From positions 62,001 to 126,000 of the forward strand of contig NZ_CP064356.1 of assembly GCF_018141545.1 (NCBI RefSeq): a stretch of DNA of 64,000 bases. The letters are read 5' to 3'. Positions 50,070 through 52,828 of the stretch are shown here, one piece after another. A program made the translations under genes and the position numbers. Positions within the stretch are counted from its first letter, which is position 1; each line of letters begins with the position of its first letter. The notes below the pieces were generated by a model that did not search any database, was not told the DNA's origin, and worked only from the letters and a program-made list of their open reading frames with translations. This DNA is from Miltoncostaea oceani (lineage in GTDB: Bacteria > Actinomycetota > Thermoleophilia > Miltoncostaeales > Miltoncostaeaceae).

Positions 50070-50609
50070 ATGACGCCGCCCCGGGACTTCATCCTCCTGG
50101 CCGGGCGCCCTGCGCTCGACCTGTGCAATACCCGTCTGGGCACGGAAGATCTCCTCACCCGTCCCGACGACCTCGCACGCTGGTTCGTCGCGACCGGCGC
50201 GACGGATCACGCGCCCCCGATCTCACCGTCGGAGCTGGCCGCCGCGCGGGCCCTCCGGGACGGGTTGCGCGAGGCCCTCCTCGCGAGCGACGGCCCCGCC
50301 GTCGCGCGGATCGCGGAGGGCTGGCTCGGCGGCGCGCCCGGCCACCTGTGCGTCGAGGAGGACACGCTCCGGCCCCGCTTCACCCCGGGCGCGACGACCT
50401 CGTGCTGCCTGCTCGTCGCCGCGGTCCTCGACGCACTCGACCTGGTGCGGGACAGCCCCGGCCGGGTGCGGGAGTGCGCCGACGCCGCGTGTCCCGTGAT
50501 GTACCTCGACACGAGCCGCAACCGCAGCCGCCGGTGGTGCTCGATGGAGGGGTGCGGCGCGCGGGCGAAGGCCTCGACCTACTACCGCCGCCACCGCTCC
50601 GCCGGCTAG
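50070..50609 (+). CDS. CGNR zinc-finger (ABATE domain) regulator
   Basis: A 179-residue protein. The N-terminal ABATE-like region (FILLAGRPALDLCNTRLG...LLTRPDDLARWF) is followed by the C-terminal CGNR zinc finger: CADAACPVMYLDTSRNRSRRWCSMEGCGARAKASTYYRR. The motif here is CGARAK in place of CGNRAK, otherwise intact. This group is thought to bind DNA through the zinc finger. The gene is divergent from the hydrolase; a palindrome next to its start codon suggests autoregulation. Confidence 0.82.
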   Translation: MTPPRDFILLAGRPALDLCNTRLGTEDLLTRPDDLARWFVATGATDHAPPISPSELAAARALRDGLREALLASDGPAVARIAEGWLGGAPGHLCVEEDTLRPRFTPGATTSCCLLVAAVLDALDLVRDSPGRVRECADAACPVMYLDTSRNRSRRWCSMEGCGARAKASTYYRRHRSAG

Positions 50610-50629
50610 ACATCCCACGGCTCTAGGCG

Positions 50630-51853
50630 TCAAGCCACGAGGCGGGTTAGCTGCTCGCTGGCGGGCCAGGCAGTCTCCTCTCGGTAGGCCTGCCGTCGAT
50701 CGAGGCAGGCGTGGAGGATCCCGACCCAGCGGTTGGCGAGCTGGCGAGTGGCCTGTGAGTGGGTCTTACCGCGCGCCCGCAGGGCGTCGTAGTAGCGCCG
50801 TGCGCCCGGGCTTGCGTTCAACGAGCTGAAGGCCCATCGCTCGCAGGCATCGGCCAGGCGCCGGTTGCGGGCCACGCGGGCCAGCACCACCCGGCTGCGA
50901 CCCGATGCCTTGGTGATCGGGGCGGTGCCCGCATAGGCCTTGCGGCCTCTAGCATCGGCGTAGCGGTTCGGGTCATCCCCGAACTCGCCGAGCACCCGGG
51001 CGCCGAGCACTGAGCCGAGTCCGGCAAGACTGCGCAGGATCTCGGCGTCCGGGTGACGATCAAAATGCTCACCGAGCTCGTGCTCGAGGGCGGCGATCTG
51101 CTGATTGAGCGATACGAGCACCGCCACCCGCGCCGCGCTCGCCGCTGCGAAGGCCTCGGCCACCAGATCGGTCGTCTCGGGCTGCTCGATGCGCAATGCC
51201 TGCTGGATCTCGGCCGCCCGCCGCTCCAGGTTGCGCTCCCGGCCGCCGCGCCCAAGCGCCGCGGCGATCTTCGCCCGTGAAAGCCCTCGGGCAACCTGCG
51301 GCGTCGGGGCGATGGCGAGGATCGACAATGCATCGGCTGAGCCCAGGTCGGTACTGAACGCCGACAGGGCCCCCGGGAAGTAGTCGCGCAGGGCCGAGCG
51401 CAGGCCGCTCACCTGGCGCTGGCGAGTCCAGATCAGGCCCTGATGGGCGCGGGCCAGCACCCGGATGGCGCTCGCCTGTCCGAGTCGCCGGCGAGCGGTC
51501 GGTGGTTGTGGTGATCGGTGCGCACCAGATCGGCCAGCAGCTTGGAGTCAGCGCCGTCGGATTTCGCGCCTGAGGTTCGTGTGGCGATCGCGGTAGCGGC
51601 TGACCGCCAACGGATTGAGGCCGTAGACCCGGTAGCCGGCCCCGACCAGCGAATCGACCAGCAATCCGCGATCGACCTCGATGCCGAGCATCACCTGATC
51701 GGGTTCGGCGGCGTGATCGGCGATCAGGCCGTGCAGCTCGGCAAGGCCGGACACCCCGACCCCGAAGCGCCCGCGCCCGAGGATCGCCCCTTGCTCATCC
51801 ATCACCGCCACGTCGTTGTGGGCCTCGGCCCAGTCGACGCCCACGAAGATCAC
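50630..51853 (-). pseudogene. IS110-family transposase, broken by two compensating frameshifts
   Basis: The whole span would encode about 407 residues, the normal IS110 length. The N-terminal part shows FVGVDWAEAHNDVAV (first Asp of DEDD) and GIEVDRGLLVDSL. After RYRDRHT the frame shifts near 51571-51580 by one base and the conserved KSDGADSKLLADLVRTDHHNHRPLAGD continues in another frame. Near 51479-51481 one base is missing and the original frame resumes (VLARAHQGLIW...). The C-terminal transposase_20 domain (SLAGLGSVLGARVLGEFGDDP, YAGTAPITKASGRSR) is intact. Either a decayed gene or assembly errors. Confidence 0.8.
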
Positions 51854-51861
51854 GATGCGCC

Positions 51862-52078
51862 TCCTCTCGGAACAGACCCTCTGTGCTCCCGAGCCTGAGA
51901 GGCCCGCGGCGACCTAATGGATCAGTGCTCGTGTCGGCACGCCATCCCACCAGCCGTCTGACCCCTCGCCGACCGGCAGGGGCACGCTCTAGCCGTAGGG
52001 CTCGAAGGCCCAGGACACAGGAGTGCTCACCCACCGGCGGCTCGGAGGATCAGCCTCTCCTACGAGACCGACCCAGCG
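51862..52078 (-). ncRNA. Candidate bridge-RNA region of the IS110 element
   Basis: About 217 bp upstream of the transposase start, without a gene. IS110-group elements carry a structured bridge RNA in this end that pairs with target and donor DNA. Stems are visible here, e.g. CCTCTC (51863-51868) with GAGAGG (51897-51902), enclosing ACAGA/TCTGT (51872-51876 and 51880-51884). The RNA itself is inferred from position and structure only. Confidence 0.4.
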
Positions 52079-52081
52079 CCA

Positions 52082-52828
52082 TTAGGACCCCGGCAGCCGC
52101 CGGGCGAGGAAGCCGGTGAGCGCCGCCGCGAAGGCGTCCGGCGCCTCGAGCGCCGTGAGGTGGCCGGCGCCGGGGATCACCACCAGCTCGGCGCCCGGGA
52201 TGCCCGCGGCGAGGGTGCGGGCGAAGTCCGGCGGGGTCAGCCCGTCGTGCTCGCCGACGATCACCAGCGTGGGCGCCGCGACACCCGGCAGGTCGGCGAC
52301 CCGGTCCGCCCGCCCCGCGAGCGCCTCGAGCGCCCGGGCCACGCCCTCCGGGTCCTGGGCGTCGGCCAGCGCGCGGGCACGGGCGAGGGCGTCCGCGTCG
52401 CCGGGGGCCACCAGCTTCGGCACGAACCCGTCGAGGAAACCCGCCGTCCCCCCGGCGCGGACCTGTGCGGCGGCCGCGTGGCGTCCGTCGCGCGCCTCGG
52501 GCGTGTCGGCCTCGGCGCGGGTGTCGGCCAGCACCAGGCCGGCGACCCGGTCCGGGTGGCGCACCGCCAGCGACAACGCGACGTACCCGCCGAGCGACAG
52601 GCCGCAGACGACGGCGCGCCCCTCCGGCGCCTCCCGCCCGATCCGCTCCGCGACCTCGTCGGCGAACCCGTCGACCGTGGCGTCCGCCCGCGGCGGGGCG
52701 CCGCCGAGGCCGGGGAACTCGGGGAGCACGACGGGGCGGTCCCCCGGCAGCGCGGCGACCAGCTCGCGCCAGAACGCGGCCTCGGTGGGGAAGGGGTGCA
52801 GCAGCACCAGCGGGACGGTGGCGGGCAT
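52082..52828 (-). CDS. Alpha/beta hydrolase
   Basis: A 248-residue hydrolase with a complete set of features: LLHPFPTEAAFWREL, VVLPEFPGLGGAPP, GLSLGGYVALSLA as the G-x-S-x-G nucleophile elbow (GLSLGG, Ser near residue 94), VIVGEHDGLTPP for the acid and GAGHLTALEAPDAF for the catalytic His. Similar proteins hydrolyse esters or lactones; no specific substrate. Start ATG is 6 nt after TAGCGT. The IS110 element lies directly downstream of its stop. Confidence 0.82.
   Translation of the reverse strand: MPATVPLVLLHPFPTEAAFWRELVAALPGDRPVVLPEFPGLGGAPPRADATVDGFADEVAERIGREAPEGRAVVCGLSLGGYVALSLAVRHPDRVAGLVLADTRAEADTPEARDGRHAAAAQVRAGGTAGFLDGFVPKLVAPGDADALARARALADAQDPEGVARALEALAGRADRVADLPGVAAPTLVIVGEHDGLTPPDFARTLAAGIPGAELVVIPGAGHLTALEAPDAFAAALTGFLARRLPGS

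Follow-up and report, generated by a model that had tools for sequence, protein, structure and literature searches.

Whether the non-coding end of an IS110 element found in Miltoncostaea oceani encodes a bridge RNA, and whether the loops of this RNA specify target and donor, is the question raised by a gene-free stretch located beside a DEDD recombinase gene. The window analyzed is a piece of 64,000 nucleotides from contig NZ_CP064356.1, and all positions below refer to it unless another contig is given. A sequence-only reading had proposed a candidate bridge RNA at 51862-52078. Judging from the sequence, we consider it almost certain that a bridge RNA, belonging to an IS110-group insertion sequence, is encoded here on the minus strand. 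The proposal is upheld by the guides, by covariation and by the way in which guides track insertion sites among relatives.

The element, its ends and its core

DNA comparison revealed one other copy only of the element in the genome, at C1:1883864-1885363. The alignment of both copies showed near identity from 50602 to about 52090 and unrelated DNA outside, the two having differing flanks and the same target. Both copies have GGGTC-CT as left flank and CT-AGCCGG as right flank, and therefore the core is CT and the target GGGTC-CT-AGCCGG. The candidate target site with its CT core is GGGTCCTAGCCGG, and as donor junction we read TGGGATGT-CT-AATGG. Three congeneric genomes lack the element at this place and have the two flanking genes side by side. 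A third DNA match, at C1:370239, was rejected as a further copy, since the similarity covers 52 bp in the region of the flanking hydrolase gene. The following features delimit the element:

50608..52085, minus strand: IS110-group element, from the two-copy comparison and the ends kept in relatives (CTAATGG / GGRTGTCT)
52084..52085, minus strand: left core dinucleotide CT, from the two-copy comparison and the family alignment
50608..50609, minus strand: right core dinucleotide CT, from the same two sources
51854..52083, minus strand: left non-coding end (LE), 230 bp, bearing the predicted bridge RNA
50610..50629, minus strand: right non-coding end (RE), 20 bp

The element measures 1,476 bp including one core, or 1,474 bp if neither CT core is counted. 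It has the layout of the IS110 group, with a long left end (230 bp), a short right end (20 bp) and the RNA upstream of the gene, together with insertion at a short core (CT at both ends). No long terminal inverted repeat is visible at the aligned element ends. The IS1111 group, in which the RNA lies in the right end downstream of the gene, was ruled out, the right end being just 20 bp long. From these sequence features the element is assigned to the IS110 family, IS110 group. The span given in the sequence-only reading was nearly exact, and the region is indeed devoid of any convincing gene from 51854 to about 52085.

The recombinase

50630..51853, minus strand: IS110 recombinase gene, interrupted (PF01548 and PF02371)

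The neighboring gene codes for a DEDD recombinase as had been claimed, both the PF01548 (DEDD) and PF02371 domains being found; in the window, however, it is interrupted. It is split in two open frames (51853-51548 and 51460-50630, minus strand) by an extra base at 51577 and a base missing near 51478, with a TGA in between. These two indels could be real or sequencing errors. The second copy has an intact recombinase of 407 amino acids. Since the gene of the window copy is interrupted, this copy would probably move only with help in trans, using the protein of the intact one.

Residues D7, E59, D99, D102 and S317-G318 are invariant among 16 aligned recombinases, and their spacing and context match the active-site residues of IS621, D11, E60, D102, D105 and S241 (Hiraizumi et al. 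2024, PMC11208158). A single-sequence search of solved structures gave no match and a profile was needed, which matched IS621 (8wt6) and ISCro4 (9t56) with E about 1e-14.

A match of Rfam family Ms_AS-4 (RF02464, 79.7 bits) was observed at 50948-51028, on the strand opposite to the recombinase gene. This family may be just conserved IS110 coding sequence.

The bridge RNA and its guides

51890..52074, minus strand: predicted bridge RNA, from covariance model, consensus fold and covariation
52012..52018, minus strand: left target guide GUGUCCU, 6/7 to the left target GGGTCCT
51989..51995, minus strand: right target guide CGGCUAG, 7/7 complementary to the right target CTAGCCG
51943..51949, minus strand: left donor guide UGGGAUG, 7/7 to the right end TGGGATG
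51914..51920, minus strand: right donor guide CCAUUAG, 7/7 complementary to the left end CTAATGG

The conserved core of the RNA is 51890-52046; its 5' end was set from the -10 box described below and its 3' end is approximate. The guides of the first loop match the insertion site and those of the second loop the element's own ends, so that the suggestion that the loops specify target and donor agrees with the sequence at 27 of 28 positions, and complementarity to the flanks, proposed as a check, is present at both in the right order and strand. One of the seven bases of the left target guide is mismatched, as is the base between the left donor guide and the core (G for T). With the four guides in the expected order on the minus strand the ordered score was 27/28, whereas 1,500 dinucleotide shuffles averaged 20.4 and never exceeded 24; among some 2,000 other segments of the window, no score of 27 was reached. 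The plus strand was rejected as the RNA strand, with a guide score of 19, at chance level.

Fold and covariation

We fetched 67 related loci and aligned 43 distinct left-end sequences, including that of the window. The consensus fold of these 43 sequences has a target loop followed by a donor loop, both internal and both capped by a hairpin. In this fold 97.7% of the cells were paired and 96 changes were double-sided; shuffles gave 92.3% and 25, and slid controls no more than 47% and 12, respectively. Changes on both sides were seen in 13 of the 31 pairs. The target loop, through its cap and the stem beneath it, contributed most of the covariation and is the part chiefly supported by it, because the stems of the donor loop are almost invariant. 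It is this covariation, and not the folding energy, that provides the evidence for a structured RNA, given that the whole 232-nt fold was unremarkable (z -1.2 on the RNA strand, and the other strand likewise).

A fit to a covariance model had also been proposed as a check, and our in-house model built from the alignment (R1) fits the bridge RNA of the window with E 4.4e-32 and 138.8 bits, the window sequence being among the 43 used to build it. It found exactly two matches in the genome at E<=1, both in the element copies. Rfam 15 gave no match in 51854-52083 at E<=1. Decayed bridge-RNA-like matches were seen in a family-level relative, and these matches were left out of the analysis.

The reading had placed its emphasis on nested hairpins:

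51859..51906, minus strand: the hairpin of the earlier reading, overlapping the recombinase ribosome-binding site and not itself a guide loop

The repeats do exist (CCTCTC at 51863-51868 and GAGAGG at 51897-51902, around ACAGA at 51872-51876 and TCTGT at 51880-51884), but the emphasis was misplaced: the hairpin is weak, with a stability slightly above shuffles (z -1.7, either strand), and it maps to the 3' edge, outside both the guide loops and the conserved two-loop core, and is unconserved in sequence or shape. It may affect translation of the recombinase.

Guides follow the insertion sites of relatives

Each left guide matched its own insertion site at 5.17 of 7 positions on average, and at 2.28 +/- 0.19 when guides and sites were re-paired (41 elements). 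The right guides gave 4.05 of 5 and 2.12 +/- 0.16, respectively (37 elements). Measured against the spread of the permuted values, the effect is about 12-15 standard deviations, and in 20,000 permutations none was as high as the observed agreement. Guide pairs were de-duplicated and the sites differ; related elements are still not fully independent. Covariation between guide and target among relatives is, at the sequence level, diagnostic of a bridge RNA.

In three of the related loci a bridge-RNA-like left end was present with no CTAATGG in the 330 bases before the gene, and their left boundary was not found. A close relative of the element was seen in one congeneric genome (eight loci, on four contigs), where it is broken at contig ends and occupies several different insertion sites; its ends show about 80% identity.

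A predicted promoter across the joined ends and the proposed mechanism

50628..50633, minus strand: -35 box TTGACG at the right end, overlapping the recombinase stop codon

When right and left ends are joined, a -10 box TCTAAT arises across them (50608-50610 plus 52081-52083), at a spacing of 17 to TTGACG. The pattern TTGAC-17/18-YCTAAT was found in 37 of 37 scorable joined ends, with about 0.2% expected by chance, and TCTAAT itself in all but one of them; a 38th joined end was incomplete and was left out of the count. We therefore speak of a predicted promoter formed by the joined right and left ends.

The element would be excised as a circle, in which the -35 (TTGAC) would come from the right end and the -10 (TCTAAT) from the core joined to the left end. 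As in IS621, the joined ends would then act as promoter for a transcript of about 180 nt, whose first internal loop would pair with the genomic target GGGTC-CT-AGCCGG and the second with the circle junction TGGGATGT-CT-AATGG, while the DEDD/serine recombinase, again by analogy with IS621, would hold target and donor and swap strands at the CT core. The element ends, target, donor, guide matches, covariation and end-split promoter are read from the DNA, and for transcription, binding and catalysis we infer from IS621 (Durrant et al. 2024; Hiraizumi et al. 2024).

The non-coding end might instead be a mere 5' leader of the recombinase mRNA, with a hairpin that hides the ribosome-binding site and controls translation. 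The hairpin does overlap this site and several relatives are also able to fold around it, but such a leader predicts neither guides that track insertion sites nor the two-loop covariation upstream, and the hairpin is conserved neither in sequence nor in shape, which makes this explanation extremely improbable. Translation control by a leader hairpin could, on the other hand, operate alongside a bridge RNA, with which it is compatible. That the bridge RNA of the window is a dead remnant, in a copy decaying as a fossil without function, is suggested by the two indels and the internal TGA of its recombinase gene. However, the two copies do not differ in their left non-coding end, the ends, cores and guides are all preserved, an intact recombinase exists elsewhere in the same genome and the indels could be sequencing errors, so we regard a fossil as unlikely.

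Insertion at stop codons and significance

The element sits at a CTAG (50606-50609, 52081-52086) common to the stop codons of two convergent genes, one coding for an ABATE/CGNR zinc-finger protein (plus strand) and the other for an alpha/beta hydrolase (minus strand). The left end supplies a TAA and, therefore, both neighboring reading frames keep their length. Four of five in-genus copies were located at coding-like gene stops, but so were 8 of 32 CTAG sites in the window, so that stop-codon targeting is no more than suggested. As a speculation, doubtful but worth stating, the guides of this subfamily might favor TAG stops (target CTAG) with the left end restoring the stop (CTAA) and sparing the neighbors, and a copy with a broken recombinase and intact bridge RNA and ends might be moved in trans as a non-autonomous element.

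The bridge RNA described here extends the bridge-RNA-guided recombinases to a divergent, GC-rich branch. The natural guide-target pairs from about 40 distinct elements are useful for guide rules beyond IS621, and the intact and interrupted copies with the same guides are a natural pair for asking about movement in trans.

Comparison with known systems

Bridge RNAs have been predicted in 85.7% of IS110-group members, and in IS621 the RNA is in the left end, the promoter lies across the joined ends and the guides include the core (Durrant et al. 2024, PMC11208160). By its sequence, the one predicted here is a further example of this recently discovered system, ordinary but well supported. Like IS621, it has the bridge RNA in a long left end upstream of the gene, a target loop followed by a donor loop, the core within the guides, a joined-end promoter and a recombinase with DEDD RuvC-like and serine Tnp domains. 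Unlike IS621, the guide sequences are different and the recombinase is distant, found by profile only (E 2e-14) and with 407 residues versus 328 in the solved chain of IS621. The right target guide has about 5 matched bases past the core, compared to the natural 4-base guide of IS621. In ISCro4 (PDB 9t56), for which the proteins alone were compared, the DEDD/serine recombinase is homologous by profile search. The actinobacterial IS110 relatives (Mycobacterium, Rhodococcus, Nocardia, Acidimicrobiia), with 54-62% protein identity, share with the element the CTAATGG / GGRTGTCT ends, the bridge-RNA fold and the split promoter; their target guides vary from element to element and, therefore, so do their target sites.
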